The translations under genes were made by a program, and so were the position numbers. This document shows, piece after piece, positions 6,373-55,920 of a DNA stretch of 58,930 nt. The notes beneath the pieces were generated by a model. That model did not search any database. It saw nothing but the letters and a program-made list of their open reading frames with translations, and had not been told where the DNA came from. The stretch is from the NCBI GenBank assembly GCA_016868295.1, contig VGHJ01000011.1, positions 1 through 58,930 of the forward strand, read 5' to 3'. Position 1 is the stretch's first letter, and every line of letters starts with the position of its first letter. This stretch comes from Betaproteobacteria bacterium (GTDB lineage Bacteria > Pseudomonadota > Gammaproteobacteria > Burkholderiales > Rhodocyclaceae).

Positions 6373-7107
6373 GTGTCGGCGCTCAAGGCCCTCGCCGCGC
6401 AGTTCCTGGCCTGGGTGCTGGCCGGGGCGGGTTATCTCGCCCTCGGCCTGCCGCTGACGGCCTCGCTCCCGCTGGCCGTTGTCCAAGGCATTCTCGCTGC
6501 AAGCCTCGGCGCGCTGCTGCGCGCGGAACCCTGGTGGATTCCCATCCACCTGATCTTTTCGCCGGCGCTCGTCCTTGCCCTGCGGCTCGACCTGCCCCCC
6601 GGCCTCTATCTCGCCGTGCTGGCGGGACTGACTTTTGTCTTCTGGACCACCTTTCGCGGCGAAGTGCCGCTGTTCCTCTCAAGCCGCGCCGTGGCGGAAG
6701 CTCTTCTCGGCCTGTTGCCGCAGCACGCCGGCCTGCGGGTAATCGACCTCGGCGCCGGCAGCGGTGGCCTGCTGCGCCGGCTGGCGCGGGCGCGGCCGGA
6801 GGCGCGCTTCACCGGCATCGAGCATGCGCCCCTGCCGTATTTCCTCGCCCGGCTGAACGCCCGCGGCCTGGTCAACCTTGTCATCCGGCGCAGCGATCTG
6901 TGGCGCGAGCCGCTGCACGGGACGGATGTCGTGTTTGTCTTTCTCTCACCCCGGGTCATGCCACGCCTGTGGGAAAAGACGCGCGCGGAGATGCGCCCCG
7001 GGGCCCTGCTGGTCAGCAGCAGTTTTCCGGTGCCGGAAGCGGAACCGGAAAGGGTGGTCGAGGTCGCCGACCGGCGCGGCACGAAGCTGTACTGCTACCG
7101 CATGTAG
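6373..7107 (+). CDS. Membrane-anchored class I SAM-dependent methyltransferase
   Basis: A 244-residue protein with about three N-terminal hydrophobic segments (roughly residues 3-25, 28-52, 57-90) followed by a class I methyltransferase domain: motif I is VIDLGAGSGGLLRRLA, followed by the acidic FTGIEHAP strand and DVVFVFLSPRVM. The GTG start at 6373 has GAGGG five bases upstream and lies 8 bp after the iorAB stop, suggesting translation from the same mRNA. No in-frame ATG fits better. Substrate unknown. One copy of the 25-bp dispersed motif lies at 6612-6636. Confidence 0.8.
   Translation: MSALKALAAQFLAWVLAGAGYLALGLPLTASLPLAVVQGILAASLGALLRAEPWWIPIHLIFSPALVLALRLDLPPGLYLAVLAGLTFVFWTTFRGEVPLFLSSRAVAEALLGLLPQHAGLRVIDLGAGSGGLLRRLARARPEARFTGIEHAPLPYFLARLNARGLVNLVIRRSDLWREPLHGTDVVFVFLSPRVMPRLWEKTRAEMRPGALLVSSSFPVPEAEPERVVEVADRRGTKLYCYRM
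6612..6636 (-). repeat. 25-bp dispersed motif, copy A
   Basis: Minus strand reads AAAAGTCAGT, CCCGCCAGC, ACGGCG. It lies in the methyltransferase gene, antisense to it, where the coding strand reads LAVLAGLTF. It matches the consensus in both blocks. Confidence 0.8.
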
Positions 7108-7188
7108 CGAAATTGCTGGCCAATTCCCCCTCAATTCGCCATATTGGAATCCGGACTTCATGGCAATAATCGGCGCCAAGGAGGCACC

Positions 7189-7902
7189 ATGGCCGAAATC
7201 GTCTGCATCATCGGCAACAAGGGCGGCACGGGCAAGACCACGCTTTCGCACATGCTGTGCCAGGGCATGGGCCTGCTCGGCCAGCGTTCCGTCTGCGTGC
7301 TGACCGACATCCACCGCGAGCCGCTCGATCCGGATGGGCGACGCTACCTCGTCGCCGACGCGCGCACGCGCGAGGCGCTGGGCAAGGTGGCGGACAAGAT
7401 CCGCAGCCTGCAGGGCTGGCTCGGCGTCATCGACGGGGGCGGCAACCGCACCGAAATGGACCGCAAACTCTACGGCCTCGCCAGCCTGGTGCTGCTGCCC
7501 TTCCGCGACTCGCACGAGGACATCCGCACCGTGATCCGCGACCTGGAGATGTTCCCGCGCGCCTGGGCCATCCCGACGCAATGGCCGACCAACCCCTGGC
7601 AGCAGGAGGCGGCGGAAAAAACCGTCAAGGAGCAACTGGACCCGTTCGCCGACCGTCTCCTGCAGCCGGTGAATGCACTCTCGGCAACCAAGCTGCTGCT
7701 GCAGAAGAACATCCCGCCCAAGCTGCCCACCCCGCTGGGCAACGCCTGCCGCGCGTTCGCCTACCAGGTGCTGGATCTGATGGAGATTGCCTGCGAAGCC
7801 CCGTTGGAGGACGTCGAGGAAGCAGCCGGCGAGGAACGACTCGCCAGGCCGCCCGCCGAATCCTACGACGCTCCGGCCGCCCCAAGCCCCACCCGGCACT
7901 GA
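7189..7902 (+). CDS. Orphan ParA/MinD-like P-loop ATPase
   Basis: A 237-residue protein beginning MAEIVCIIGNKGGTGKTTLS, with the deviant Walker A KGGTGKTT at residues 11-18 characteristic of ParA/Soj/MinD ATPases. A Walker B-like strand follows at WLGVIDGGGNR, but without the usual DxxP signature. The C-terminus is Pro/Ala-rich and probably disordered. The start has an ideal AGGAGG, and the in-frame extension to 7144 lacks support. No parB, parS-like site or partner gene is adjacent; the gene converges on a response regulator with a 2-bp gap. The role could be positioning of a cell component, but nothing shows which. Confidence 0.8.
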   Translation: MAEIVCIIGNKGGTGKTTLSHMLCQGMGLLGQRSVCVLTDIHREPLDPDGRRYLVADARTREALGKVADKIRSLQGWLGVIDGGGNRTEMDRKLYGLASLVLLPFRDSHEDIRTVIRDLEMFPRAWAIPTQWPTNPWQQEAAEKTVKEQLDPFADRLLQPVNALSATKLLLQKNIPPKLPTPLGNACRAFAYQVLDLMEIACEAPLEDVEEAAGEERLARPPAESYDAPAAPSPTRH

Positions 7903-7904
7903 CC

Positions 7905-8555: not shown

Positions 8556-8667
8556 GCCTCCTCCCAGTCGAAGTTGTTCTGTTTTGCCGGATGATACGGG
8601 ATAGGACCGGGGCGCGCCAACAGGCGCGCATAATGACAACTGCGTTCAACCCGACGAGGCCCGCACG
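8556..8667. promoter_or_regulatory. Divergent intergenic region of the two-component pair, with inverted repeat
   Basis: This 112-bp gap must hold promoters for both the regulator and the kinase. It contains a perfect 7-bp inverted repeat GCGCGCC (8612-8618), AACA, GGCGCGC (8623-8629), immediately followed by ATAATGAC. The repeat could be an operator or a hairpin in the kinase leader; nothing decides between these. Confidence 0.4.
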
Positions 8668-12638: not shown

Positions 12639-14414
12639 TCAGTGTAATGCCTTGTCCGGCGGCCGCCAACCGGACACCTCCACCGCGGCGCGCCCCTTGA
12701 TTGCCATCGCCCCCAGCGGCACGAACCCTTCGCGGAAAGTCAGTCGCTGCAGCACGGCGTTCGAGGCCAGCAGGGGATAGCCCGCTTCCTTGGTCAGCCC
12801 CTCGATGCGGGAGGCGGCGTTGACCGCATCGCCGACGGCGGTGTACTCGTGGCGGTCGGCCGCACCGATGTAGCCGACGACCGCCGCGCCGAAATGCAGG
12901 CCGATGCCGATGTGCAGGGACGCGCGGCCTTCCGCTTCCAGTTCGGCATTCAGCGCCGCCAGCTCGCCGAGCATCGCGCGCGCCGTCGCGAAGGCGTCGT
13001 CGCAGGGATTGTCGCGCGGCTGCGGCGCACCGAAGAAGGCCATGATGCCGTCGCCCATGAACTTGTCGAGGGTGCCGCCGTGGGCATGGATCGCCGCCAC
13101 CATGCGCCCGAAATAGCGGTCGAGCAACCGCGTCACCTCCTCCGGCGGCAGCGATTCGGACAGCGTGGTGAAGCCGCGGATGTCGGAAAACAGCAGGCAG
13201 ATCTCGCGCCGCTCGCCGCCCAACTGCGGCTGCAGGCGGCCGGCAAGGATTTCCCGCAATACGTCGGGGCTGACGAAGCCGGTGAAGGCCGCCCGCAGCC
13301 AGCGTTTCTCGCGCATGGCGAACCAGGCTTCCAGGGCCGCGCGCGCGCCGGCCGCCAGCAGGGCCGCCAGCACCGGCCAGGCCAGCGGCACGTGCCGCCC
13401 CTCGCGCAGCAGCAGCATTTCCAACGCCAGCGCGCCGACGACCGCCATGCCGAGCAACACCGCATTGAGGCCGCCGGGACGCAGCCACCAGGCCAGCGCG
13501 GCCGCGAGCGTCGCCAGCAAGGCGATCCCCTCGCCGACGGGACGCACGATGCGCCCCTCCAGGAGGCTGCGCATCTGCTGGGCATGGATGAGCACGCCGT
13601 GGGTCGTGTCGCGATCCCGGTCCCATGCCGCCAGCCGCACCGGCAGCTTGATCTGGTCTTCGTAGGGGAAGACGTTGCCGAGGATGACGACTTTGCCGCC
13701 GAACCGGCGCGCCAGCGCCTCGCCGTCGCCCGCCGCCTGCAGGGCCAGCACCTCGCGCAGGGGCACATAGATGAAGTCCGTGCCGAGCGCGAATTGCACT
13801 AGACCGTATTCGACCGGTACGTCGAGGCGGCGCGCCAGTTGTCCGGCCAGCGTCGGCCCCAGGCCCTCGTCGAAGCGGCGCACCGCTCCATCCTCGTCGA
13901 GTTGCACCAGCGCATAGCCGACGCCCTCTCGCCCGGCGAGGGTGAGGAAGGGCTGATGCACGGGCCGCGGCCTTCCGGCCTCGTCGATGGTGACGCCCAG
14001 CACCAGCGGCGCCACGTTGCGCAGGCGCAGCATGCCGCGCGCGAGCGCGGCGTCCAGCCCCGGCCTGAGGCCGTCGTAGCTCGTCTGCGGCAGGGTAACA
14101 TCGAGGCCGACGGCGCGCGGCTTCGCCGCCGCCATCGCTTCGAGAAAGCGGCCGAGCTCGGCATGCATGGTGGCGAGCGGCAGGTTCATGGCGCGCACGG
14201 AGGCGTCGTCGATGCCGACCACCACGACATCCTGCGCGACGGGCAGCGGCGCATGCGCGCGCAGCAGGCGGAATTGCAGATCGACCCAGGCGAGTTCGAG
14301 CAGACGCGCCGGGAGAAGCAGGCTCATCGCGAGCAGGAAAACGCACGACAGCGCGAAACCGATGCGCAGCTGTGCTGCCTGGGGACTGCCCTGGGAAGAC
14401 TGAGAGACCGACAT
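12639..14414 (-). CDS. CHASE2-domain class III adenylate/guanylate cyclase
   Basis: A 591-residue membrane cyclase making cAMP (or cGMP). An N-terminal helix (about residues 16-36) is followed by a periplasmic CHASE2 sensor (VVVVGIDDASVRAMN; PRAVGLDVTLPQ), three transmembrane helices at about 305-375, and a class III cyclase domain (CLLFSDIRGFTTLSESLP; GTLDKFMGDGIMAFFGAP; DAVNAASRIEGL). The metal-binding Asp residues (FSDIRGF and MGDGI) are present, so the domain should be active. It heads a three-gene unit with the FecR-like protein and AEC carrier. A 25-bp motif copy lies at 12735-12759. Confidence 0.92.
   Translation of the reverse strand: MSVSQSSQGSPQAAQLRIGFALSCVFLLAMSLLLPARLLELAWVDLQFRLLRAHAPLPVAQDVVVVGIDDASVRAMNLPLATMHAELGRFLEAMAAAKPRAVGLDVTLPQTSYDGLRPGLDAALARGMLRLRNVAPLVLGVTIDEAGRPRPVHQPFLTLAGREGVGYALVQLDEDGAVRRFDEGLGPTLAGQLARRLDVPVEYGLVQFALGTDFIYVPLREVLALQAAGDGEALARRFGGKVVILGNVFPYEDQIKLPVRLAAWDRDRDTTHGVLIHAQQMRSLLEGRIVRPVGEGIALLATLAAALAWWLRPGGLNAVLLGMAVVGALALEMLLLREGRHVPLAWPVLAALLAAGARAALEAWFAMREKRWLRAAFTGFVSPDVLREILAGRLQPQLGGERREICLLFSDIRGFTTLSESLPPEEVTRLLDRYFGRMVAAIHAHGGTLDKFMGDGIMAFFGAPQPRDNPCDDAFATARAMLGELAALNAELEAEGRASLHIGIGLHFGAAVVGYIGAADRHEYTAVGDAVNAASRIEGLTKEAGYPLLASNAVLQRLTFREGFVPLGAMAIKGRAAVEVSGWRPPDKALH
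12735..12759 (+). repeat. 25-bp dispersed motif, copy B
   Basis: Reads GAAAGTCAGT, CGCTGCAGC, ACGGCG. It lies in the cyclase gene, antisense to it; the coding strand reads NAVLQRLTF. Confidence 0.8.
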
Positions 14415-14439: not shown

Positions 14440-15615
14440 CTAGATTATGCCCTGCCGGCGCAGCTTGTCGATGGCATCCCGGTCGAAGCCGGCATCGCGC
14501 AGGATTTCCTCGCTGTGCTGGCCGGGCGCGGGTGCACTGCGCTCGATGGCGAATTCGTATCCGGACATCTTGTAGGGCGGCCCAATTTGCGGAATGCCGT
14601 CGGCCTCGACCACCATGCCGCGCGCCTGCAGTTGCTCGTTGTCGAGCGCCTCGCCGATGTGGAGCACCGGGGTCACGCAGCAGTCGACCCGGTCGAACAT
14701 GGCGGTCCATTCCGCCTGCGACTTGCCGGCGAAGACGGCGGCAAGTTCCCGCTTCGCCTGCTCCCCTCTAGTGCCGAACGAAAGATGGCAAGGCTTCAGG
14801 TCGGGCCGTTCGAGCGTATCGCAGAGCCGCTCCCAGAACTTTTTCTCGAGCGCGCCGACCGCCATGTGACGGCCGTCGGCCGTCGCGTACACGCCGTAGC
14901 AGGGAACGCCGCCGGAGAGCAGATCCGCCCCGCGCGGCGGCGGCGCCAGGCGCGCCAGCAGGCCGGCGAGCGGAAACACGGCATGCGCCAGCACCGCATC
15001 GGTCATGGCGACATCGACATGACGGCCGCACCCCGTGGCACGCGCATCGATCACCGCGGCAAGCAGGCCGACCAGCGGCGCCAGCGCGCCGCCAAGCAGA
15101 TCGCCGATCTGGAAATTGGGCACCACCGGCGGAGCGCCCGCCGCGCCGATCTGGTCGAGCACGCCGGCATAGCCGATGTAGTTGATGTCGTGCCCGGCGC
15201 GCTGGGCGTAGGGGCCGTCCTGCCCGTAGCCGGTGATGGAGCAGAAGACGAGGCGGGGATTGAGCGCGGACAGGGCTTCGTAGCCTAGCCCAAGTCTTTC
15301 CATGACGCCCGGGCGAAAACCTTCGATGACGACGTCCGCCGACAAAGTCAGTCGCCGGAAGACGGCGACGCCCTCGGGCTGCTTCAGGTCGAGGCGCAGC
15401 GCGCGCTTGTTGCGGTTGACCAGTTTGAAGAAGGCGCTCGTCTCGCCCGGTTTGGCGCCCATCGTACGGGCGTAATCGCCCTCGCCGGTGTCCTCGATCT
15501 TGATGACATCCGCGCCGAGGTCGGCGAGATGCTGGGTGGCAACGGGGCCCGGCAGCAGCCGGGTGAGGTCGAGCACGCGCAGGCCGGCGAGCGGCTCGCG
15601 GCGCGACTCAGTCAT
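14440..15615 (-). CDS. CaiB/BaiF family protein, alpha-methylacyl-CoA racemase-like
   Basis: A 391-residue class III CoA-transferase fold protein. The N-terminus GLRVLDLTRLLPGPVATQHL and EGFRPGVMERLGLGY are family signatures. H142 in GHDINYIGYAGVLDQIG and D206 in VAMTDAVLAHA match the His/Asp pair of alpha-methylacyl-CoA racemase, which interconverts R- and S-2-methylacyl-CoA during branched-chain and sterol side-chain breakdown; D206 also aligns with the nucleophilic Asp of formyl-CoA transferase, so CoA transfer is not excluded. The start ATG at 15615 overlaps the end of the upstream ligase by 8 bp, indicating coupling; the longer frame to 15720 is a shadow. Last gene of the liv operon. Confidence 0.85.
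   Translation of the reverse strand: MTESRREPLAGLRVLDLTRLLPGPVATQHLADLGADVIKIEDTGEGDYARTMGAKPGETSAFFKLVNRNKRALRLDLKQPEGVAVFRRLTLSADVVIEGFRPGVMERLGLGYEALSALNPRLVFCSITGYGQDGPYAQRAGHDINYIGYAGVLDQIGAAGAPPVVPNFQIGDLLGGALAPLVGLLAAVIDARATGCGRHVDVAMTDAVLAHAVFPLAGLLARLAPPPRGADLLSGGVPCYGVYATADGRHMAVGALEKKFWERLCDTLERPDLKPCHLSFGTRGEQAKRELAAVFAGKSQAEWTAMFDRVDCCVTPVLHIGEALDNEQLQARGMVVEADGIPQIGPPYKMSGYEFAIERSAPAPGQHSEEILRDAGFDRDAIDKLRRQGII
15343..15367 (+). repeat. 25-bp dispersed motif, copy C
   Basis: Reads CAAAGTCAGT, CGCCGGAAG, ACGGCG. It lies in the racemase-like gene, antisense to it (coding strand VAVFRRLTL). The middle block is the most divergent of the ten copies. Confidence 0.75.
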
Positions 15616-21154: not shown

Positions 21155-21166
21155 GCCGTCTGTTCC

Positions 21167-24908: not shown

Positions 24909-27900
24909 TCACATACTTCTCCGGTACTGTCCGCCCACCTCGAACAGCGCCTGGGTGACCTGACCCAGCGAACATACCCGCACCGCGTCCACCAGCACCG
25001 CGAAGACGTTGCCGTTCTCGATGACGGTCTGCTTCAGGTGCGCCAGCATCGGGGCGGCCTCGGCGGCATGGCGGCTCTGGAAGTCGGCCAGTCTTGAGAG
25101 TTGCGACTGCTTCTCCTCCTCCGTCGAGCGCGCCAGCTCGACCTTCTCGGGCACGCCGTCGCCGTGCGGGTTGCGGAAGGTGTTTACGCCGATGATCGGG
25201 TAGGAGCCGTCGTGCTTGCGGTGCTCGTAGTAGAGCGACTCCTCCTGGATCTTGCCGCGCTGGTAGCCGGTCTCCATGGCGCCGAGTACGCCGCCGCGCG
25301 AAGAAATGGCCTCGAACTCCTTCAGCACCGCCTCTTCGACCAGATCGGTCAGTTCGTCTATGACGAAAGCCCCCTGGTTCGGGTTCTCGTTCTTCGCCAG
25401 GCCCCACTCGCGGTTGATGACCAGCTGGATGGCCATGGCGCGGCGCACCGATTCCTCGGTCGGCGTGGTGATGGCCTCGTCGTAAGCATTGGTGTGCAGG
25501 CTGTTGCAGTTGTCGTAGATGGCGATCAGGGCCTGCAGGGTGGTGCGGATGTCGTTGAAGGCCATCTCCTGGGCGTGCAGCGAGCGGCCGGAAGTCTGCA
25601 CATGGTATTTGAGCTTTTGCGAGCGCTCGTTGGCGCCGTAGCGGTTCTTCATCGCCACCGCCCAGATGCGGCGGGCGACACGGCCGATCACCGTGTACTC
25701 CGGGTCCATGCCGTTGGAGAAGAAGAAGGACAGGTTGGGCGCGAAGTCGTCGATGTGCATGCCGCGGGCGAGGTAGGTCTCGACGTAGGTGAAGCCGTTG
25801 GCCAGCGTGAAGGCCAGCTGCGAGATCGGGTTCGCCCCGGCCTCGGCGATGTGGTAGCCGGAGATCGACACCGAGTAGAAGTTCTTCACGTCGTGGTGGA
25901 CGAAGTACTCCTGGATGTCGCCCATCATCTTCAGGGCGAACTCAGTGGAGAAGATGCAGGTGTTCTGGCCCTGGTCCTCCTTCAGGATGTCGGCCTGCAC
26001 GGTGCCGCGCACGTTCGACAGCGTCCACTCGCGGATCTTGTCGGCCTCGTCCTCGGTCGGCTCGCGCCGGTTGTCGGCGCGGAACTTGTCGATCTGCTGG
26101 TCGAGCGCGGTGTTGAAGAACATGGCGAGGATCACCGGCGCCGGGCCGTTGATGGTCATCGACACCGAGGTGGTCGGGCAGACCAGGTCGAAGCCCGAGT
26201 ACAGCACCTTCATGTCGTCGAGCGTGGCGATCGACACGCCCGAGTTGCCGACCTTGCCGTAGATGTCCGGCCGCAGGTCCGGGTCGCAGCCGTAGAGCGT
26301 CACCGAGTCGAAGGCCGTCGACAGGCGGTGCGCCGGCATGCCCTCGGAGACCTTCTTGAAGCGGCGGTTGGTGCGGAAGGCATCGCCCTCGCCGGCGAAC
26401 ATGCGCGTCGGGTCTTCATTTTCGCGCTTGAAGGCGAAGACACCGGCGGCATACGGGAAGGAGCCGGGCACGTTCTCCTTCATGAGGAAGCGCAGCGTCT
26501 CGCCCTCGTCCTCGAACTTCGGCAGCACCACCTTGCGGATCTTGGTGCCGGAGAGGCTCTCAGAGACCAGGCCGGTGCGCACCTCCTTGTCGCGGATCTT
26601 CACGACGTACTCGTCGCCCGAGTACGCGCGCTGCATGTCGGGCCACATCTCCAGCAGCTTCTTGGCGCGCGGGTCGAGCTGGCCGTCCTTCCAGGCGATG
26701 AGTTCGTCGAACTGCGCAACGTCCTTGCCGCAGCCCTCGAACAGCGCCTTGGCCGTGCGCAGGCTCTGCCGCTCGCGGGCGATCGTCGCCTGCTCGGCGG
26801 TGTGCCGGTGGTAGCCGCGCACCGCATCGGCGATGTCGGCGAGGTAGCGCACGCGCTCGGCCGGCACGATGGCGCGGCCGCGCGAGGATTGGCGCACCGC
26901 CACCTTCGGCAGCTTGCCGGGGGCGGTCTTCAGGCCCAGCGCATTGAGCTTCGGCAGCAGCGCCTGATACAGGGCCGTAACGCCGTCGTCGTTGAAGCGC
27001 GCCGCCATGGTGCCGAACACCGGCATTTCGTCCACCGGGGTCGTGAACAGCTCGCGGTTGCGCTGCACCTGCTTCCTCACGTCGCGGAAGGCATCCTCCG
27101 CCCCCTTGCGGTCGAACTTGTTGATGGCGACGAAGTCGGCGAAGTCGAGCATGTCGATTTTCTCGAGCTGGCTGGCGGCGCCGAACTCGGGAGTCATGAC
27201 ATAGAGCGAGGCGTCGACGTGCGGCACGATGGCGGCGTCGCCCTGGCCAATGCCGGAGGTCTCGACGACGACGAGGTCGAAGCCGGCCAGCTTGCAGGCG
27301 GCGATCACTTCCGGCAGGGCGGCGGAGATCTCCGAGCCCGTGTCGCGCGTGGCCAGCGAGCGCATGAAGATGTTGGGATGGCCGATGGCGTTCATGCGGA
27401 TGCGGTCGCCGAGCAGTGCGCCGCCGGTGCGCTTGCGCGAGGGGTCGACCGCCACCACGGCAATCTTGAGGGAGTCGTTCTGGTCGAGGCGCAGGCGGCG
27501 GATCAGTTCGTCGGTAAGGCTCGACTTGCCCGAGCCGCCGGTGCCGGTGATGCCGAGGGTCGGCACCTTGGCCTGAGCGCCGTCCTGCAGAAGCTGACTT
27601 TTCAGCTTGTCGGGCACCGCGCCGTTTTCCAGCGCGGTGATCAGGCGGGAAAGCGCGCGGCGGTCGCCGGCGGCCACCGCCTTCAGGTCCGGCGCGCCGG
27701 AAATGGCCACGTCGCACTGCGCCACCATGTCGTTGATCATGCCCTGCAGGCCCATCCTGCGGCCGTCCTCGACCGAATAGATGTGGGCGACGCCGTAGGC
27801 GTGCAGTTCGCGGATCTCTTCCGGCACGATCACCCCGCCGCCGCCGCCGAAGACCCTGATGTTCTCGCCGCCGCGGCTCTTCAGCAGATCGACCATGTAC

Positions 27901-28160
27901 TTGAAGTACTCGACGTGGCCGCCCTGGTAGGAGGAGACGGCGATGCCCTGCACGTCCTCCTGCAGCGCCGCCGTGACGATCTCCTCGACCGAGCGGTTGT
28001 GGCCGAGGTGAATCACCTCGGCGCCGGTCGACTGGAGGATGCGCCGCATGATGTTGATCGAGGCGTCGTGGCCGTCGAACAGCGAGGCGGCGCTGACGAA
28101 GCGCACCTTGTGCTGCGGCTTGTAGGCGGCGATCTTCTGGCTCACGCTCAAATCGGTCAT
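24909..28160 (-). CDS. icmF: Fused isobutyryl-CoA mutase
   Basis: A 1083-residue adenosylcobalamin enzyme interconverting isobutyryl-CoA and n-butyryl-CoA. Domains in order: B12-binding (residues about 18-150, with [16 protein letters not shown]; His31 is the cobalt ligand), G-protein chaperone of the MeaB/MeaI type (P-loop GTGGSGKSS; later [12 protein letters not shown]), and the mutase barrel ([56 protein letters not shown]). Having the chaperone between the B12 and substrate domains is diagnostic of IcmF rather than methylmalonyl-CoA mutase. Relatives also act on isovaleryl/pivalyl-CoA. I chose the ATG at 28160; the extension to 28259 runs through the promoter. Confidence 0.95.
27578..27602 (-). 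repeat. 25-bp dispersed motif, copy D
   Basis: Minus strand reads AAAAGTCAGC, TTCTGCAGG, ACGGCG. It lies in icmF, sense to it, where it encodes KSQLLQDGA, a frame different from copies A-C. Confidence 0.78.
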
Positions 28161-28197
28161 GGCAACCACTCCGGAAGCGGCGGGTGTCGGAACGGGC

Positions 28198-28226
28198 AAT
28201 CTAACTGACGTTGACGTCAACGTCAA
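28198..28226 (-). promoter_or_regulatory. icmF promoter with an operator in its spacer (MerR-type, LiuR-like)
   Basis: Minus strand: TTGACG (28226-28221), 17 bp, TAGATT (28203-28198). The spacer and -35 are filled by the dyad TTGACGT-CA-ACGTCAA (plus strand 28211-28226), overlapped by TGACGT-TG-ACGTCA (28206-28219). The 7-2-7 ACGT dyad resembles sites of the MerR-family LiuR regulators of branched-chain acyl-CoA catabolism, as I recall them. The regulator gene is not in the window. Confidence 0.65.
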
Positions 28227-28292
28227 CCTGCCCGGGGCTCCAAGTGCCTGTCGGGGCACGGGATTTGTCGTCGGGACGGCAATCTTGCGCCG

Positions 28293-33013: not shown

Positions 33014-34558
33014 TCAGTGTCCCGCGTGGCCGTGGGCCGAGAACCGCGCCGCGCCGCCCGCCTCGAGCTTGTAGATCACCCACTCGCCCGGCTTGCGCTC
33101 GACGAACTCGAAGGCGATCGGGCTGCCGGGCTTGAGCGATCCGACGAGCGAGGGGTTGGCCAGCACGAAGTCCATGGTCATCGAAGGCCAGCCGAGGCTC
33201 GCCACCGGTTCGTGGCTCACGCTCACCGTGCCGGCGGCGGCGTCGATGGCCTTCAGCGTGCCCTCCGCTTTGTGCGAAGCGGCCGGCTTCGCCGTGTCGC
33301 CGGGACTGACTTTTCCGAAACCGCCCAAGCCACCGAGTGCCGCCTTGAGGTTACTCTCGGCGTCGATGAGAAAGTTGGCGGCGACCACCACCGCCTCGCC
33401 CTCCTTGACGCCCTCGCGCACCTCGACGTAGTCGCCGGCGCGCACGCCGAGCTTCACTTCGCGCGGCTCGAAGCGCCCTTCTGCCATCTGCACCAGCACG
33501 ACGCGGCGCACGCCGCTGTCGATCACCGCCGAGGTCGGCACCGCCAGCACCTTGGCGCCGCCGGCAGGCGCCAGCTCCAGCGTCGCGAACATGGCGGGTT
33601 TCAGCAGCCCGCCGGGATTCGCCAGCTCGACCCGCACCGGCACGCTGCGCGTCTCCGCCTTCAGCGTCGGATAGACGTAGCTCACCGCGCCCTCGAACAC
33701 CTTGTCGGGGTAGGCGTCGACGCGCAGCCGCGCCTTCTGGCCGACGCGCACGCTGCCGATGTCCTGCTCGAAGACGTCGGCGACGGCCCACACCGCGGAC
33801 AGGTCGGCGATCTGGTAGAGCGCCTCGCCCGGCATGAAGCGCATGCCGGCGACGGCCTTCTTCTCCATGACGATGCCGGAAGCCGGCGCGCGCAGCGTCA
33901 GCGTGCGGCGCGCCTCGCCCGACTCGCGCAGGTGCGCAATCTGTTCGTCGGAGATGTCCCAGTTGCGCAGCCGCGCCAGGCTCGACTCGGCGAGCCGCCG
34001 CATGCCGGCCTGGGCCTCGCCGCCCGCTTCCCTGAGCGAGCGCTCGCCCTGGGCGGCGATGGCGTATTCCTTCTGCACCGAGACCAGTTCCGGGCTGTAC
34101 ACCTCGGCCAGCGTCTGGCCGCGGCCGACCGGCTGGCCGCTGGCGTTCACGTGCAGGCGCTCGATCCAACCCTCGAATTTCGGCGCGACGGCGTACAGGC
34201 GCCGCTCGTCCACCTCGATGCGAGCGGCGGCGCGCAGCTCGCGCGACAGCGCACGCAGCGCCGCGGCCTCGGTGCGCACGCCGAGCTTCTGCACCTTCTC
34301 CGTGCTGACGACGATGCCGCTGTCCGCGGCCGGCTCCTCGCCCGCGTAGACCGGAATGTAGTCCATGCCCATCGGATCCTTCTTCGGCACCGGCGAGGTG
34401 TCGGGCAGGCCCATCGGGTTGCGGTAGTAGAGCGGCTTGCGCTCGGCCGGGGCGGCCGCCTGCGGCGCGGCCGCTTCGTGCCCGCCGCGGCCGCCCAGCC
34501 AGTAGCCGAGGCCGAGCGCGGCCGCCACCAGCACGAGAGTGAGCATGGATTTATTCAC
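33014..34558 (-). CDS. cusB: Cu(I)/Ag(I) efflux periplasmic adaptor with C-terminal CusF-like domain
   Basis: A 514-residue adaptor. An N-terminal hydrophobic anchor (about residues 5-22) is followed by a heavy-metal-binding segment at 43-75 (YYRNPMGLPDTSPVPKKDPM, GMDYIPVY), lipoyl/hairpin/barrel domains (VYSPELVSVQKEYAIAAQGE; LRAPASGIVMEKKAVAGMRF), and, after a linker, a CusF-like domain at about 435-500 (HEPVASLGWPSMTMDFVL; the Trp and two Met of the Cu(I) site are kept) with a His-rich tail (SAHGHAGH). The GTG start at 34558 overlaps the cusC stop as GTGA. E. coli CusB lacks the appended chaperone domain. A longer frame to 35944 is a shadow of cusC. Confidence 0.93.
   Translation of the reverse strand: MNKSMLTLVLVAAALGLGYWLGGRGGHEAAAPQAAAPAERKPLYYRNPMGLPDTSPVPKKDPMGMDYIPVYAGEEPAADSGIVVSTEKVQKLGVRTEAAALRALSRELRAAARIEVDERRLYAVAPKFEGWIERLHVNASGQPVGRGQTLAEVYSPELVSVQKEYAIAAQGERSLREAGGEAQAGMRRLAESSLARLRNWDISDEQIAHLRESGEARRTLTLRAPASGIVMEKKAVAGMRFMPGEALYQIADLSAVWAVADVFEQDIGSVRVGQKARLRVDAYPDKVFEGAVSYVYPTLKAETRSVPVRVELANPGGLLKPAMFATLELAPAGGAKVLAVPTSAVIDSGVRRVVLVQMAEGRFEPREVKLGVRAGDYVEVREGVKEGEAVVVAANFLIDAESNLKAALGGLGGFGKVSPGDTAKPAASHKAEGTLKAIDAAAGTVSVSHEPVASLGWPSMTMDFVLANPSLVGSLKPGSPIAFEFVERKPGEWVIYKLEAGGAARFSAHGHAGH
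33290..33314 (-). repeat. 25-bp dispersed motif, copy G
   Basis: Minus strand reads AAAAGTCAGT, CCCGGCGAC, ACGGCG. It lies in cusB, sense to it, encoding GKVSPGDTAK in the linker before the CusF-like domain; a third reading frame relative to the other copies. Confidence 0.8.
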
Positions 34559-35820
34559 AGTTCTTCCCCCAGCAGTCGTTCGATGTCGGCCAGGCGCAGC
34601 TGCGCCTCGGCCTGCGCCTTGAGTCGGTCGAGCTTCGCCTTGCGCAGCTGGCGCTGCGCCTCCAGCAGCGTGGCGAAGTCCAGGCGGCCCGTCTCGTAGC
34701 CGGCCAGCGCCGCCTGGAAGGCGACGTCCGCCTGCGGCAGCAGGGCGGTGGCGACGAGCTGTTCCAGGCGCCGCGCGGCATCCAGCGCCGAGAGGTTTTC
34801 CGCCAGCTCGGCCGAGACCTGACTGAGCGCGGCCTCCTTGCGCGCACGGGCGGCGGAGGCCATCGCCGCCGCCTCGCGTTCCTGCGCGCGGCGGCTCTCC
34901 TGCCGCAGCGGAATGTTGATCTCGAACATCAGCTCCCATTCGCTGACGCGGTTGCGCGTCTGGATCGGCGAGACGCCGACGGTGAGGTCCGGGTAGCGGT
35001 TCTTCGTCACCAGCTCGCGGTTCTTGTCGGCGGCGGCGATCTGCGCCTCCTGCACGGCAAGCTGCGGGTTGGCGGCGAGCAGGCGCGCTTCCAGCGCGGT
35101 GTAATCGAGCTTCGCGGCGGCCGGCAGCGGGCGCAACGCCTGCGGCTCGGCCAGCGCGGCCTGGGGCGGGCGGCGCAGCAGGGCGTTCAGCCGCGCCGCG
35201 GCATGGTGGTGTTCGGTTTCCATCATCAGCAGTTCGCTGCGCAGCGCCGTGCGTTCGACCTGGGCGCGCACCACGTCCTGCTGCGGCACCAGGCCGTCGA
35301 CGTAGCGCGCCTGCGCCAGCTGCTCCAGGCTGCCGGCGAGGCGCAGCAATTCCCGCGTGATCTTCAGGTTTTGGCCGACGAGGTAGTACTGGGCGAAGGC
35401 GGCCTTCACCCTCGCCGCCAGCTCGGCCCAGGTGCCGCTGCGGCGCGCCTGCGCCTGCGCGGCATCGGCCGCGGCCACCTCGCGGCGCAGGTCGCGCTTG
35501 CCCCACAGCGGGATGGTCTGCGTCACGGTGTACTTCGTGCTGCCGACGCGCGCCGGCAGCAGGTTGAAGTCGCCGTTGCCCATCTGGTTGCCGACGTCGC
35601 GCAGCTCCATCCGGCCCATCGGGTCGGGCAGCGCGCCGGCCGGCTGCACGCGCTCGCGCGCCGCCTCGACCTCGAAACCCATCGCCGCCAATTCGGGGTT
35701 CTGCCGCCGCGCCAGTTCGAGCAGTTCCTCGACGCGCGCGCCGGGCACCTGTGCGCCGGCCAGGCCGCCCCACAGGCAGACGCCCAGCGCCACCGCTTTC
35801 TTCAGCATGACTCGTCGCAT
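34555..35820 (-). CDS. cusC: TolC-family outer-membrane component of the Cus efflux system
   Basis: A 421-residue outer-membrane factor. The signal peptide (MRRVMLKKAVALGVCLWGGL, ending AGAQ) precedes two OEP repeats: RVEELLELARRQNPELAAMG with PAGALPDPMGRMELRDVG, and the second LLAANPQLAVQEAQIAAADK. Long coiled-coil helices are evident (LDAARRLEQLVATALLPQAD). No Cys lipobox follows the signal sequence, unlike E. coli CusC. I prefer the ATG at 35820, which has GGAGG upstream; an in-frame GTG at 35832 or ATG at 35808 are alternatives. It overlaps cusB by 4 bp. Confidence 0.88.
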   Translation of the reverse strand: MRRVMLKKAVALGVCLWGGLAGAQVPGARVEELLELARRQNPELAAMGFEVEAARERVQPAGALPDPMGRMELRDVGNQMGNGDFNLLPARVGSTKYTVTQTIPLWGKRDLRREVAAADAAQAQARRSGTWAELAARVKAAFAQYYLVGQNLKITRELLRLAGSLEQLAQARYVDGLVPQQDVVRAQVERTALRSELLMMETEHHHAAARLNALLRRPPQAALAEPQALRPLPAAAKLDYTALEARLLAANPQLAVQEAQIAAADKNRELVTKNRYPDLTVGVSPIQTRNRVSEWELMFEINIPLRQESRRAQEREAAAMASAARARKEAALSQVSAELAENLSALDAARRLEQLVATALLPQADVAFQAALAGYETGRLDFATLLEAQRQLRKAKLDRLKAQAEAQLRLADIERLLGEEL

Positions 35821-35837
35821 GCCGCCTCCCACATGAT

Positions 35838-36131
35838 TTATTTCTCCGGCGCGATGCGCGAAATGACGTACTGGCCGTCGGCGCCCTTGACGAGGCCGAA
35901 GTCAACTTTCTGCTCCGGCTTGAGGCCGGAGAGCTGCTTCGCATCCTTGACCTTGAGGTCCATGGTCATGGCCGGCCACTTTATTGAGGGAATCGGCTCG
36001 TGGGCGAGCTTGACGACACCAGCGGCGACATCGACCTTCTTGACGACGCCCTTGCCCGCCACTTCATTGGATGCGACGGCGACGAAGGGGACGGCGGCAA
36101 GCAGCAGTGCGGTTGCGATCAGTTTCTTCAT
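35838..36131 (-). CDS. cusF: Periplasmic copper-binding protein CusF-like
   Basis: A 97-residue exported protein: signal peptide MKKLIATALLLAAVPFVAVA, then a small OB-fold domain of the CusF/YdeP-like type. The Cu(I) ligands of CusF are preserved as H in AHEPIPSIKW, the capping Trp, and both Met of PAMTMDLKV. It should carry Cu(I) to CusB. The cluster therefore encodes this domain twice: here and at the C-terminus of CusB. The ATG at 36131 follows a plausible AAGGAGA; the frame beyond it is non-coding. Confidence 0.92.
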   Translation of the reverse strand: MKKLIATALLLAAVPFVAVASNEVAGKGVVKKVDVAAGVVKLAHEPIPSIKWPAMTMDLKVKDAKQLSGLKPEQKVDFGLVKGADGQYVISRIAPEK

Positions 36132-36153: not shown

Positions 36154-36612
36154 TCAGCGATGGCTTTCATAGACGGCGGTCTTGCCGGCCTTGTCGAAGC
36201 CGACGACGTCGTAGGGGTCCTTCTTCCCGGGCACTTCCATGCCCGGCGAGCCGAGCGGCATGCCCGGCGAGCCGAGCGGCATGCCCGGCACCGAGACGCC
36301 GGCCAGCGCCGGCTTCTCGCGCAGCAGGCGCCTGATGGCGGAGGCCGGCACATGGCCCTCGACGACGTAGTTGCCCACCTTGGCGGTGTGGCAGGAAGTC
36401 AGTCGCTGCGGCACGGCGAAGCGCCGCTTGACCGATTCCATGTCGTTCGTGGCGACCGTCTTCACGCGGAAGCCGTTGGCCTCCAGATGCTCCGCCCAGG
36501 CGCCGCAGCAGCCGCAGTTGGGATCCTTGTACATCAGGACCTGCGGCAGCGGTTCCGCGGCCATCGCTCCGGTCGCGGCCAGAAGGGCGAGTGCGGCAAT
36601 CCATTTGTTCAT
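36154..36612 (-). CDS. DUF411 metal-binding exported protein
   Basis: A 152-residue protein: signal peptide to residue about 20 (IAALALLAATGAMAA), then the DUF411 domain with MYKDPNCGCCGAWAEHLEAN (CxCC), SCHTAKVGNYVVEGHVPA and the typical GVSVPGMPLGSPGMEV. DUF411 proteins occur in copper- and mercury-resistance clusters, with the CGCC and CH residues as likely ligands; their exact role is not known. A 21-bp tandem repeat duplicates the GMPLGSP unit. The start is the ATG at 36612. A 25-bp motif copy lies at 36394-36418. Confidence 0.88.
   Translation of the reverse strand: MNKWIAALALLAATGAMAAEPLPQVLMYKDPNCGCCGAWAEHLEANGFRVKTVATNDMESVKRRFAVPQRLTSCHTAKVGNYVVEGHVPASAIRRLLREKPALAGVSVPGMPLGSPGMPLGSPGMEVPGKKDPYDVVGFDKAGKTAVYESHR
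36238..36279. repeat. Two-copy 21-bp tandem repeat in the DUF411 gene
   Basis: Identical 21-bp units at 36238-36258 and 36259-36279, with a partial third copy (CATGCCCGGC) at 36280. They duplicate the seven-residue GMPLGSP motif near the C-terminus, probably by replication slippage. Confidence 0.9.
36394..36418 (+). repeat. 25-bp dispersed motif, copy H
   Basis: Reads GGAAGTCAGT, CGCTGCGGC, ACGGCG. It lies in the DUF411 gene, antisense to it; the coding strand gives FAVPQRLTSCH, overlapping the conserved SCH. Confidence 0.75.
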
Positions 36613-38978: not shown

Positions 38979-40334
38979 TTATTTCTTCTTGATAGGCCGC
39001 TTCCAACCGGGCACGGTGAGCTGCTTCACCCGCGTGAGGGTCAGCTTCTCCGGCGGCGCATCCTGCGTCAGCGTGGTGCCGGCGCCGAGCGTGGCGCCTC
39101 GGCCGACCGTGACGGGCGCCACCAGCTGCGTGTCTGAGCCGATGAAGACGTCGTCCTCGATCACCGTGCGGTGCTTGTTGGCGCCGTCGTAGTTGCAGGT
39201 GATGGTGCCGGCGCCGACGTTGACGTTTTTGCCCACGGTGGCGTCGCCGACGTAGGCGAGATGGTTGGCCTTCGATTTGTCGGCAACCGTGCTGTTCTTC
39301 ACCTCGACGAAGTTGCCGATGTGCACCTCATCGGCCAGCCTGGTGCCTGGGCGCAGGCGCGCAAAGGGGCCGATGCGGCAGTCCCTGCCCGCCTCGGCCT
39401 CCTCGATATGGCTGAAGGGCGCGATGCGCGTGCCGGCGCCGATCACGGCGTTCCTGAGCACGCAGTGGGCACCGACCTCGACGCCGTTGCCGAGCACGAC
39501 GCGGCCCTCGAAGACGCAGTTCACGTCGATCGACACGTCGCGGCCGCAATCGAGCTCGCCACGCACGTCGATGCGCTCCGGGTCGGCCAGGGTGACGCCG
39601 CTCTCCATCAACAGCAGCGCGTTGTTGCGCTGGTGGATGCGCTCGAGCTCGGCCAGCTGGACCTTGCTGTTCACGCCGAGCACTTCCCAGCCGGCGTCGG
39701 GCTGGGTGGTGGCCACCGCCATGTCCTCGCCGATGGCGAGTCGGACGATGTCGGTCAGGTAGTACTCCCCCTGCGCGTTGTTGTTGCCCAGCGCCGGCAG
39801 CCAGCGCTTGAGCGCCGCGGTCGGCGCGGCCATGAAGCCGGTGTTGATCTCGTCGATGGCACGCTCGTCGTCGGAGGCGTCGCGATGCTCGACGATGCGC
39901 CGCACCCTGCCATCGTCGTCACGCACGATGCGGCCGTAGCCGGTCGGATCTTCGAGGAACTCGGTCAGCACGGCGAGGCCGTTGCCGGCCACTTCGGCCA
40001 GGCGCGAGAGAGTGGCGGCGCCGATCAGCGGCACGTCGCCATAGAGCACCAGGGTGGGTGCGCCGTCGTCGAGAAAAGTCAGTGTCTGCAGCACGGCGTG
40101 GCCGGTGCCGAGCTGGAGTTCCTGCTTGACCCAGATCAGGTCGGGTGCGTCGAGCGCCTCGCGCACCGATTCGCCGCCGTGGCCGTAGACGACGCAGATT
40201 TTCCCGGCGCCCAGTTCGCGCGCCGTCTCCAGCACATGCCCCAGCAGCGGCCGCCCGCCGAGGCGGTGCAGCACCTTGGGCAGGTCCGAGCGCATGCGCT
40301 TGCCTTGTCCGGCGGCGAGGATGACGACGTTCAT
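38979..40334 (-). CDS. glmU: Bifunctional N-acetylglucosamine-1-phosphate uridyltransferase / glucosamine-1-phosphate acetyltransferase
   Basis: A 451-residue enzyme for the last two steps of UDP-GlcNAc synthesis. The N-terminal pyrophosphorylase has [18 protein letters not shown] and [10 protein letters not shown]; the C-terminal left-handed beta-helix has [19 protein letters not shown] and [19 protein letters not shown]. The start ATG at 40334 begins [11 protein letters not shown]. It is in an operon with glmS. A 25-bp motif copy lies at 40074-40098. Confidence 0.98.
40074..40098 (+). repeat. 25-bp dispersed motif, copy I
   Basis: Reads AAAAGTCAGT, GTCTGCAGC, ACGGCG. It lies in glmU, antisense to it; the coding strand gives [13 protein letters not shown]. 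Confidence 0.8.
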
Positions 40335-40395
40335 GACGCAGGAATGGGGTGAGAGTGGGGAAATTCTAGCATGCGTCCCGCGGGAACCCTGAAAC

Positions 40396-40423
40396 GGCAA
40401 GGGCGGCCACAGCCGCCCTTGCC
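40396..40423 (-). terminator. Hairpin downstream of gltD
   Basis: A perfect 12-bp stem GGCAAGGGCGGC / GCCGCCCTTGCC around CACA, 16 bp after the gltD stop. On the minus strand only GTTTC follows, so it is a weak intrinsic terminator or a 3'-end stabiliser separating gltBD from glmUS. Confidence 0.65.
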
Positions 40424-53290: not shown

Positions 53291-53319
53291 CTCTGACCTT
53301 CTGCTAACATCGCTGCATC

Positions 53320-53514: not shown

Positions 53515-54755
53515 ACCTCTTCGACTACCGTGACGGGGTCCTCTGCGCCGAAGGCGTGCCATTGCCGCAGATCGCGGCCGAACACGGCACGCCTTGCTTC
53601 GTCTATTCACGCGCCGCCCTGATCGCGCGGCTGGACGAATACCGCCAGGTCGTGGCCGAACGCGACGCGCTGATCTGCTACGCAGTCAAGGCCAACTCGA
53701 ATCTCGCCATCCTGAATCTCTTCGCCCGCGCCGGCGCCGGCTTCGACATCGTCTCCGGCGGCGAACTGGCGCGCGTGCGCGCCGCCGGCGGCAACCCGGC
53801 CAAGGTGGTGTTCTCGGGCGTGGGCAAATCGCGACATGAAATGCGCGCGGCGCTGGAAGCGGGCATCCTCTGCTTCAACGTCGAGTCGGCCGCCGAACTC
53901 GAAGCGCTGAACGAAGTCGCCGGCAGCCTGGGCCGGCGCGCGCCGGTGTCGCTGCGCGTGAACCCGGATGTCGATCCGAAGACGCACCCCTACATCGCCA
54001 CCGGCCTGAAGAACACCAAGTTCGGCATCCCCTTCGACGAGGCGCTGCCGCTGTACCGGCACGCCCGCTCGCTGCCGCACGTGGACGTCCGCGGCATCGA
54101 CTGCCACATCGGCTCGCAGCTGCTCGATCCGGCGCCGGCCGCCGAGGCCGCCGCCAGGCTGCTCGGCCTGGTCGACGCGCTCGCCGCCGAAGGCATCGCC
54201 CTCGCCCACATCGACGTCGGCGGCGGCATGGGCATCCGCTACCGCGACGAGCCGGCGCCGACGGCCGGGGAATATCTGGCGCCGCTGCTCGCCGTGCTCT
54301 CCGGCCGGCGGGAGAAGCTGCTGTTCGAACCGGGCCGCTCGCTGGTCGGCAACGCCGGCATCCTGCTCACCCGCATCGAATACCTCAAGCATGGCGAGGA
54401 GAAGCACTTCGCCGTCGTCGATGCCGCCATGAACGACCTGATGCGGCCCGCGCTCTACGACGCCTGGCACGACATCGAGCCGGTCCGGCAGCGGCCTGGC
54501 GCGGCGACGGAATACGAGGTCGTCGGGCCGGTGTGCGAGTCGGGCGACTTCCTCGGCCACGGCCGGCGCCTGGCGGTCGAGGCGGGGGATCTCCTCGCCA
54601 TCCGTTCCGCCGGCGCCTACGGCATGGCGATGAGCTCCAATTACAACACCCGCCCGCGCGCCGCCGAGGTGATGGTCGACGGCGGCCGCATCCATCTCGT
54701 GCGCGAACGGGAACAAGTCGCGCAGCTTTTCGCCGGCGAGCATGTCCTGCCCTGA
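53511..54755 (+). CDS. lysA: Diaminopimelate decarboxylase
   Basis: A 414-residue PLP enzyme for the last step of lysine synthesis. The PLP Lys is in CYAVKANSNLAILNL; other landmarks are FDIVSGGELARVRAAG, HPYIATGLKNTKFGIPFDEA, GIDCHIGSQLLD, HIDVGGGMGIRY, EPGRSLVGNAGILLTR, GPVCESGDFLG and SAGAYGMAMSSNYNTRPRAA. Its ATG overlaps the lptM stop by 4 bp and its end runs next to the efflux adaptor gene. Confidence 0.97.
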   Translation: MNLFDYRDGVLCAEGVPLPQIAAEHGTPCFVYSRAALIARLDEYRQVVAERDALICYAVKANSNLAILNLFARAGAGFDIVSGGELARVRAAGGNPAKVVFSGVGKSRHEMRAALEAGILCFNVESAAELEALNEVAGSLGRRAPVSLRVNPDVDPKTHPYIATGLKNTKFGIPFDEALPLYRHARSLPHVDVRGIDCHIGSQLLDPAPAAEAAARLLGLVDALAAEGIALAHIDVGGGMGIRYRDEPAPTAGEYLAPLLAVLSGRREKLLFEPGRSLVGNAGILLTRIEYLKHGEEKHFAVVDAAMNDLMRPALYDAWHDIEPVRQRPGAATEYEVVGPVCESGDFLGHGRRLAVEAGDLLAIRSAGAYGMAMSSNYNTRPRAAEVMVDGGRIHLVREREQVAQLFAGEHVLP

Positions 54756-54765
54756 CCGCGATGCC

Positions 54766-55920
54766 ATGAGCCGCCGACTTCCCCTTCTGCTCGTCGCAAC
54801 GCTGGCGCTCGTCGCCTGCCAGAAAACGGAGGAAAAAAAGGTACCCGGCCCGCCGCCGACCCTGATCACCGTCACCCAGGCCAAGGCCGGCGCCATGGAG
54901 GTCGTCGAGGAAACCCTCGGCGCGCTGGAATCGGAACTCGACCCGAAGATCGGCGCGGAGGTCGCCGGCAAAGTCGTCCGGATGCTCGCCTCCTCGGGCA
55001 AGACGGTCAGGAAAGGGGAACTGCTGGCGGTCATCGACGCCACGGATTTCGCGCTGCAGAACCGCGCGGACGAAGCCGAGCGCAAGCGCACCGAGGCCCT
55101 GCTGGCCCAGCAGGAGCGTGTCGTCGAGCGCCAGCAGCAACTGGTGCAGAAGGGCTTCATTTCGCAGAACGCCGCCGACGATGCCCGCGCCCAGCGCGAC
55201 GCGCTGCGCGAACAGCTGGTCGCGGCGAGCGCGCGCGGCGACCTGAGCCGTCGCAGCCAGGGCAAGGCGCGCGTGGTGGCCCCCTTCGACGGCACCGTGG
55301 AGACCGCCATCGCCTCGGCCGGAGACTACGTCAAGGTCGGCGACCCGCTGTTCCAGTTCGTCTCTTCCAGGAAACTGCGCGCCCACCTGCCCTTTCCGGA
55401 ATCCGCCGCGCCGCGCCTGAAGAAAGGCCAGGCCGTCATCCTCACCTCCCCCCTGCTGCCGGGCCGGGAGATCCGTGCCGCCGTCAGCGACATCAAGCCC
55501 GGCGTGTCGGAGACGGGCCGCGCACTCGACGTCATCGTCGACATCGACAACCGGGCAGGCTACAGGCCCGGCGGCACAGTCAACGCCGCGGTCATCGTCG
55601 CCCGACGCGAGGATGCCGTGCTGGTGCCGGAGCAGAGCGTCGTGCTGCGTCCGGCCGGCAAGGTGGTGTACGCCATCGCCGAGGGCAAGGCGCAGCAGCG
55701 CATCGTCGAGGTCGGCGCCAAGCGCGGCGGCATGGTGGAGATTCTCAAGGGCCTGCCGGCCGGCACCACCGTTGCGCTGGACGGTGCCGGCTTCCTCACG
55801 AATAACGCTTCGGTCGTCGTCAAGGAGCCGGGCAAGCCGGCGACGGCGAAACCAGCGGAAAGTCAGTCCCCGCAGCACGGCGCCGAAGCCCAGCCCGCCG
55901 CACAGCCCGCCAGGAAATGA
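54766..55920 (+). CDS. RND efflux system periplasmic adaptor (lipoprotein)
   Basis: A 384-residue membrane-fusion protein. MSRRLPLLLVATLALVAC forms a signal peptide with a lipobox and lipidated Cys18. The lipoyl half-motifs are LDPKIGAEVAGKVVRML and SQGKARVVAPFDGTVETAI, with a helical hairpin between (RKRTEALLAQQERVVERQQQ), then beta-barrel and membrane-proximal domains (AVLVPEQSVVLRPAGKVVYA). I chose the ATG at 54766 because it starts a clean lipoprotein signal; the ATG at 54742 inside lysA is possible. It overlaps the pump gene by ATGA. A 25-bp motif copy lies in its disordered C-terminus. Confidence 0.9.
   Translation: MSRRLPLLLVATLALVACQKTEEKKVPGPPPTLITVTQAKAGAMEVVEETLGALESELDPKIGAEVAGKVVRMLASSGKTVRKGELLAVIDATDFALQNRADEAERKRTEALLAQQERVVERQQQLVQKGFISQNAADDARAQRDALREQLVAASARGDLSRRSQGKARVVAPFDGTVETAIASAGDYVKVGDPLFQFVSSRKLRAHLPFPESAAPRLKKGQAVILTSPLLPGREIRAAVSDIKPGVSETGRALDVIVDIDNRAGYRPGGTVNAAVIVARREDAVLVPEQSVVLRPAGKVVYAIAEGKAQQRIVEVGAKRGGMVEILKGLPAGTTVALDGAGFLTNNASVVVKEPGKPATAKPAESQSPQHGAEAQPAAQPARK
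55858..55882 (+). repeat. 25-bp dispersed motif, copy J
   Basis: Reads GAAAGTCAGT, CCCCGCAGC, ACGGCG. It lies in the adaptor gene, sense to it, encoding ESQSPQHGA in the low-complexity C-terminal tail. Confidence 0.8.

Follow-up and report, generated by a model that had tools for sequence, protein, structure and literature searches.

The window analyzed here is the whole 58,930-nucleotide stretch at positions 1 to 58,930 of contig VGHJ01000011.1 (forward strand; assembly GCA_016868295.1, a Betaproteobacteria bacterium placed within the Rhodocyclaceae by GTDB). Dispersed in it are copies of a 25-bp bipartite DNA motif, the element considered in this study. The original prediction, made from the letters of the window, described ten such copies with AGTCA and ACGGCG at constant spacing. 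All ten are present, on the strands given in Table 1, and in each the two blocks are separated by 11 bases (AGTCA-N11-ACGGCG, the strict core). Eight of the ten were recovered at three or fewer mismatches to the consensus, and none in 100 dinucleotide shuffles. A 25-position scoring matrix was trained exclusively on strict-core sites from another species, the genus mate G002, whose genome is complete; it gave the ten copies 29.1 to 40.9 bits and left every other site in the whole window below 10 bits. Across 200 order-3 Markov randomizations of the window, a total of 12 sites reached 15 bits (maximum, 22.1). An eleventh strict-core match, at about 21154-21178 (-), scored <10 bits on the matrix and was not counted as a copy.

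A genome-wide scan, the check proposed with the ten copies, returned a huge excess. G000, the 2.67-Mb genome from which the window comes, carries 360 strict cores (181 forward, 179 reverse), and the pattern read backwards is found 0 times on either strand. The top over-represented 10-mer in samples of both G000 and G002 was AAAGTCAGTC, with 50 occurrences versus 0.07 expected in 459 kb of G000. Alignment of 76 G000 and 88 G002 copies gave the 25-bp consensus RAAAGTCAGTCSCNSCRRSACGGCG, with information spanning positions -3 to +21 and at most 0.26 bit at each of 30 flanking positions per side. Sites of at least 15 bits numbered 209 per Mb in G000 and 178 per Mb in G002, the training genome (reversed matrix, 0 and 2), which indicates a sharply near-consensus population with few half-decayed sites. 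Overall, motif density was about 150 to 210 per Mb. The half-motif AAAGTCAG occurred 82 times in the sample that holds 76 strict cores, that is, with no half-motif excess.

Table 1. Motif copies in the window, with their scores on the G002-trained matrix, and other features of the same stretch
Feature	Coordinates	Strand	Score (bits)	Setting or remark
Motif copy AAAAGTCAGTCCCGCCAGCACGGCG	6612..6636	-	40.4	
Motif copy GAAAGTCAGTCGCTGCAGCACGGCG	12735..12759	+	37.6	Antisense in CHASE2/adenylate cyclase gene (12639-14414 -)
Motif copy CAAAGTCAGTCGCCGGAAGACGGCG	15343..15367	+	31.9	Antisense in CoA-transferase III gene (14440-15720 -)
Motif copy AAAAGTCAGCTTCTGCAGGACGGCG	27578..27602	-	29.1	Sense in fused methylmalonyl-CoA mutase/MeaB gene (24909-28259 -)
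Motif copy AAAAGTCAGCCGCCGCGGGACGGCG	30086..30110	-	32.7	Sense in AcrB/RND pump gene (29836-33012 -)
Motif copy AAAAGTCAATCCCAGCGACACGGCG	31342..31366	+	33.3	Antisense in AcrB/RND pump gene (29836-33012 -)
Motif copy AAAAGTCAGTCCCGGCGACACGGCG	33290..33314	-	40.9	Sense in HlyD/CusB-CusF gene (33014-35944 -)
Motif copy GGAAGTCAGTCGCTGCGGCACGGCG	36394..36418	+	32.1	Stretch with two tested open reading frames, neither matching Pfam
Motif copy AAAAGTCAGTGTCTGCAGCACGGCG	40074..40098	+	36.6	Antisense in GlmU-like gene (38979-40400 -); site history traced
Motif copy GAAAGTCAGTCCCCGCAGCACGGCG	55858..55882	+	39.1	Sense in HlyD-family gene (54742-55920 +)
tRNA-Thr, tRNA-Gly, tRNA-Tyr cluster	165..480	-		At window edge
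Single 1116-aa open reading frame	24909..28259	-		Joins B12-binding, MeaB-type GTPase, and methylmalonyl-CoA mutase domains; presumably IcmF-like
HlyD/CusB-type membrane fusion protein	33014..35944	-		C-terminal CusF copper-binding domain; adjoins RND pump

The genomic setting of the copies was determined in samples covering 17% of G000 and 20% of G002 (164 sites; genes called by a simple codon-usage script). Forty-six sites lay in sense and 65 in antisense orientation wholly within a gene (111/164 together), 42 were fully intergenic, and 11 overlapped a gene end. The intergenic share (42/164) compares with 10.6% and 14.5% noncoding DNA in the G000 and G002 samples under the same script-called genes, and many intergenic copies were located directly past a stop codon. 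The claim that the copies encode different peptides holds, as they occur in several frames, yet the frames are far from even: one (AVLxxLTF type) was used by 60 of the 65 antisense copies of the two species, and another by 28 of the 46 sense copies. Occurrence on either strand, in multiple frames, and in intergenic DNA, together with the information-poor flanks, supports the proposal that DNA, not peptide, is the conserved thing.

Strict cores in G002 are balanced overall between strands (233/239), and at least one copy was recovered in 28 of 32 sampled 20-kb stretches around the chromosome. By chromosome half, the G002 sample held 17 plus- and 18 minus-strand sites in the first (35 sites) and 36 and 17 in the second (53 sites). 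These counts show neither strong polarity nor restriction to one chromosomal region, although a slight strand bias may exist. Copies per 20 kb had a mean of 2.75 and a variance of 4.26, and their number rose with G+C content (rho = 0.61; P = 0.0002). Lower density at lower G+C would be expected if recently imported DNA lacked the motif.

The host is a member of the "Candidatus Desulfobacillus denitrificans" group, a candidate genus that NCBI places in Betaproteobacteria incertae sedis. A scan of named genomes with the exact pattern returned at least 88 stretches, at least 20 of them from "Candidatus Desulfobacillus denitrificans" AP021857.1; most of the other stretches listed came from metagenome-assembled genomes (MAGs) called Rhodocyclaceae, Rhodocyclales, Sulfuritalea, or Betaproteobacteria. 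Twelve of 15 genus mates carry 158 to 487 strict cores, and three are poor in them (G009, 8; G012, 25; G013, 42). The distribution scans covered the family, which we take to be GTDB Rhodocyclaceae, and the order. With a dialect-neutral pattern (AAGTCNG-N10-ACGGC) and a threshold of at least 80 copies for motif-rich genomes, 45 of 297 family genomes (tallied from the printed rows) in 8 of 68 genera were motif rich, with 101 to 710 copies each. Genus g90 was intermediate (2 to 67 copies), and nearly all other family genomes were near the reversed control, with mild excesses in G079 (13 versus 2) and G230 (11 versus 3). The 16 matches in G094, several of them on two contigs (C66 and C104), look like mis-binned DNA, and its genus was not counted as positive.

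Motif-bearing genera also include members with few copies. G279 and G291 hold 1 and 8 copies, versus 165 to 587 in the nine further sampled members of their genus; G121 holds 3 compared to 101 in G061; and G275 and G288 hold 21 and 46, versus 134 to 428 in the remaining ten members of theirs. Although some genomes are incomplete, incompleteness does not explain these gaps between low and rich congeners. Outside the family, none of 386 genomes of the order (completeness of at least 80%) was clearly enriched, so that in the sampled genomes the distribution is limited to the family. The highest count outside it was in G381 (18 versus 7 in the control), and a mild excess in G046 included three cores that fit the spacer of the G form described below.

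Several observations lie to the side of this distribution. Exact copies occur in records named Geobacteraceae, Gammaproteobacteria, and Thermomonas (L057, L070, and L083), which are perhaps mis-binned Rhodocyclaceae contigs; the motif might help detect such contamination. Eight IMG/VR viral contigs (L089 to L096) also carry it, as either phages of motif-bearing hosts or host DNA; L093, L095, and L096 each combine an A-form with a G-form copy, and L094 alone of the eight matched DNA of the comparison set. In motif-poor genera, other k-mers are strongly over-represented, such as AGGCCGGGGTC in G032 (L161 to L165; 30 versus 0.12), CTCCCACAGCA in G020 (L176 to L180; 11 versus 0.01), and AAAGCGAATCC in G018 (L196 to L200; 8 versus 0.01).

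Related dialects of the motif were found in seven other genera of the family, making eight genera in all; the dialect of genus g47 is drawn from 3 sampled sites. The variant AGTCGG (the G form) is rare in most genus mates of the host. Two of them mix both forms, as if caught in a dialect change: G003 holds 158 A-form and 132 G-form copies and G007 holds 179 and 195. With another spacer, the G form is abundant in two other genera (547 copies in G016 and 689 in G023), and in G076, G102, and G138 it has a spacer near CGCTGGCGR. A third form, ending in ACGGCA, was recovered in G033, and G162 mixes ACGGCA and ACGGCG ends (17 A, 10 G, and 1 T). G061 has the A form, based on 3 sampled sites. Some dialects differ at single bases. 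Apart from the two mixed genus mates, dialects follow clades, as those of uptake sequences do.

The history of individual sites was followed in 192 alignments of motif copies to orthologs, of which 154 had an intact partner, a proportion inflated in this broad set by query loci that were often chosen for holding the motif and by near-identical species. Of the 38 non-intact partners, 28 were ungapped at the site and 10 gapped, the latter mostly in poorly matching pairs. In the unbiased but small set from G000, G002, and G009, 20 of 24 sites were ungapped. The core was kept in 8 of 11 ungapped comparisons between G000 and G002, counted in both directions so that one site may count twice, where flank identity predicts 3.0 and random positions gave 66/181. 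In G009, it was kept in 0 of 9 ungapped comparisons. At the 7 ungapped sites compared from G002 to G009, the 25-mer was 58% identical and its flanks 82%, in comparison with 82% and 85% for random 25-mers and their flanks. Only a slight excess of sites at 10 to 21 bits, as motif remnants, was seen in G009.

The copy in the GlmU-like gene of the window could be followed across 26 genomes without any gap inside the 25 bp. The motif occupies this site in 9/9 motif-rich congeners with a full match (G005, G006, G007, and G015 had none and stand outside the comparison) and is absent from 3/3 motif-poor congeners and 14/14 genomes of other genera, where other sequences, several of them near-versions, stand in the same codon register. 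Six genomes of other genera (G061, G162, G117, G076, G033, and G222) have cores of their own dialect elsewhere in this gene or within 60 bp of it. At the sites traced, the alignments indicate that the motif arises or changes in place, by substitution in codon register and not by insertion; at most of them, gain or loss is a direction that we infer. In a tree of the GlmU protein, G009 and G013 group with motif-rich G008 (support, 99/97), which suggests, from one gene, that they are motif poor through loss. As the earliest branch of the genus in this tree, G012 could be primitively motif poor.

By analogy with known systems, we lean toward reading the motif as a self-recognition signal of the DNA uptake type in a Rhodocyclaceae lineage. 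Biased uptake followed by homologous recombination predicts just such a motif: long, near-perfect, altered in place in hundreds of genes on both strands, limited to some genera, dialected between them, and scarce in some of their species. Insertion, codon bias, or a core chromosome function could hardly account for this pattern. Under such a mechanism, a cell-surface DNA-binding receptor, probably part of a type IV pilus, would prefer fragments carrying the 25-bp bipartite signal, and imported fragments would replace homologous chromosomal segments. The bias in uptake would then act as a molecular drive and spread signal-bearing alleles in any tolerant gene, frame, and strand. Drift of the receptor could give rise to dialects, and its loss would leave the motif to be lost by point mutation. 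Receptor, uptake, and drive are parts of this scheme that we infer. A more specific version may also hold, although we would put it at slightly below even chances: a third sequence-specific uptake system, evolved in the Rhodocyclaceae independently of those of Neisseriaceae and Pasteurellaceae, with a dialected 25-bp bipartite signal, a reader distinct from both ComP and MSHA pilins, no recognizable ComEA in most lineages, and repeated loss within genera.

The likeness to the uptake sequences of Neisseria and Pasteurellaceae drawn by the original prediction remains the best fit for a dispersed, nearly strand-neutral, dialected, and patchy motif, and it is weakened by several results. Copies number in the hundreds per genome, which is far above chance and at the low end of the published range for uptake sequences. 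Inverted pairs that could act as terminators, common but not defining for uptake sequences, are rare: a single pair within 200 bp was found among the 164 sampled sites, and a second in G000 (C1 167632/167680). Of the competence machinery, ComEC was found in 54/60 genomes, DprA in 52/54 (50 over the cut-off), and a GspH/FimT-type pilin in 35/37, in keeping with uptake, but none of the three separates motif-rich from motif-poor genomes. Two motif-rich genomes, G001 and G015, had no DprA match among the 54 genomes searched, with G016 marginal, and GspH matches were missing from G002 and G084, also motif rich, among the 37 searched. Canonical ComEA, scored as TIGR00426 over the cut-off, was present in 18 of 80 genomes and was inversely associated with the motif in a grouping of our own: 2/36 motif-rich genomes (G102 and G184), 0/12 motif-poor or intermediate genomes of motif-bearing genera, and 16/32 other motif-poor genomes.

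These ComEA counts depend on what the search could detect. The open reading frame was recovered in two of four stretches with ComEA matches (G020 and G031), each coding for a short, apparently secreted helix-hairpin-helix (HHH) protein such as would be expected of ComEA; tblastn with these two proteins found no match in 3.58 Mb of loci, a small part of each genome. Most of the remaining TIGR00426 matches were proteins of about 800 residues, which we take to be Tex. Absence of ComEA from the host genus is weakly supported, because the ComEA search found the HHH region of the probable Tex in only 1 of 15 genomes of that genus. In motif-rich genomes of other genera, 17 of 24 yielded a Tex-sized protein and no ComEA, which again counts against uptake. 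The PF07963 search was run on seven genomes and on open reading frames of 15 inspected loci, with systematic comparison confined to G000. There it matched only a cluster of minor pilins and what is probably the major pilin, so that no orphan ComP-like pilin was found within the limited sensitivity of this search, a further point against the uptake reading. Given these mixed machinery results, ComEA included, we hold uptake to be only somewhat favored.

An MSHA-type pilin was considered as the reader when a second weak GspH match first seemed to track the motif, and this candidate failed in a profile search. In motif-rich G000, G222, and G084, a profile of nine MshC-like proteins matched nothing better than 1e-10, and in G162 and G174 nothing better than 1e-9 to 1e-10; in motif-poor G017, G022, G025, and G032, its matches were at 1e-37 or below.

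Among other explanations, the most serious is a binding site for an intracellular DNA-organizing protein, such as a nucleoid-associated or chromosome segregation factor, with a site every ~6 kb. High information content, in-place change, occurrence on both strands, and dispersion along the G002 chromosome would all suit such a site, as would the poor detection of ComEA in motif-rich genomes. A core function is nevertheless odd for a motif that is not enriched in 60 of 68 sampled family genera and is scarce in some congeners, the dialects differ between genera, and the confinement or strong polarity of matS- or KOPS-type sites is missing; we regard this explanation as unlikely, though worth keeping in view. 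Another exchange or recombination signal, either a packaging site of gene transfer particles or a long Chi-like hotspot, would be subject to the same molecular drive, make the same predictions as uptake, and not need ComEA. Chi sites are short and strand biased, unlike the balanced strands here, and to our knowledge no dispersed 25-bp packaging or Chi-like signal of this kind has been described, which makes this route improbable in our estimation.

It is more doubtful still that the motif is a transcription terminator or regulatory element whose intragenic copies are by-products. The intergenic copies, many of them just past a stop codon, are compatible with that function, and among 28 folded copies (hand-picked from 53 not wholly inside a gene), two intergenic ones, L110 near 4486 and L111 near 1458, resemble intrinsic terminators in that the ACGGCG end forms a hairpin arm and a T run comes next. 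No hairpin common to the remaining folded copies was apparent by eye, no excess of half-motifs exists, and about two-thirds of the sites are wholly inside genes in both orientations. The miniature insertion element or other mobile repeat that the original prediction had offered as an alternative would account for dispersion, fixed length, and the gapped minority of non-intact sites. It is refuted for the tested sites, most of which are ungapped; the longer flanking homology expected of a mobile element was not seen, and the copy in the GlmU-like gene is in frame and codon-colinear with relatives that lack the motif, even though 25 bp is not a codon multiple. We give almost no weight to this source, and as little to a chance origin, codon bias, or a recurring peptide, for which the strong frame preference of the antisense copies speaks. 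These last readings are refuted by the reversed controls, the Markov windows, and the copies that are intergenic or in other frames.

If the uptake reading is true, a third, unrelated case would allow comparative tests of how uptake specificity originates, is driven, and is lost. Congeneric motif-rich and motif-poor species and dialects with single-base differences are already at hand for this purpose, and they would be natural before-and-after genomes if repeated loss is true. It would also suggest selective transformation as a route of gene exchange in environmental denitrifiers of the host group, which we take to be lineages of anammox reactors and groundwater. Should the reader instead be a chromosome protein, the motif would represent an architectural site that is dispersed and is enriched in only 8 of the 68 genera sampled within one family, and we know of no architectural site with such restricted enrichment.

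A literature search, with preprints and most subscription journals outside its reach, found no report of this motif among the titles listed, nor a paper on DNA uptake sequences in Rhodocyclaceae. The chromosome-organizing motifs matS, KOPS, Chi, and parS each provide many specific sites for one DNA-binding protein; in comparison, the Rhodocyclaceae motif is confined to no part of the chromosome, has no strong polarity, and is patchy within one family. Neisseriaceae and Pasteurellaceae are the only families known to use uptake sequences, according to a 2025 paper. Two sources (PMC12616744, PMC3630211) describe dialects and copy numbers in the hundreds to thousands as hallmarks of such sequences, and a third (PMC2346458) reports biases in orientation or frame and toward gene ends for known uptake sequences.

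The Neisseriaceae literature describes DNA uptake sequences (DUS; receptor, ComP) in eight dialects, with some family members lacking DUS (PMC3630211). The Rhodocyclaceae motif is like them in genome-wide enrichment, clade-specific dialects, the possibility of two dialects in one genome, and motif-less family members (PMC3630211). DUS are continuous, up to about 13 nt long, with a CTG core (PMC12616744), and present in thousands of copies (PMC3630211). The motif described here differs in being 25 bp long and bipartite, with another sequence, fewer copies per Mb, and few inverted pairs, and its logo contains no continuous 12-nt-type DUS motif with a CTG core. Like the uptake signal sequences (USS) of Pasteurellaceae, for which ComN/PpdA is the proposed receptor, it is long and discontinuous; USS extend up to 32 nt and are of two types, with a 9-nt core, AAGTGCGGT or ACAAGCGGT, and two AT-rich tracts (PMC12616744). 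Neither AAGTGCGGT nor ACAAGCGGT is in the motif logo, and compared to USS, the motif has a different density, a GC-rich second block, ACGGCG, at fixed spacing, and no AT tract, in bacteria that are not Pasteurellaceae. Since it shares population features with both systems, and would work like them if the uptake reading holds, but has the sequence of neither, we class it as neither DUS nor USS.

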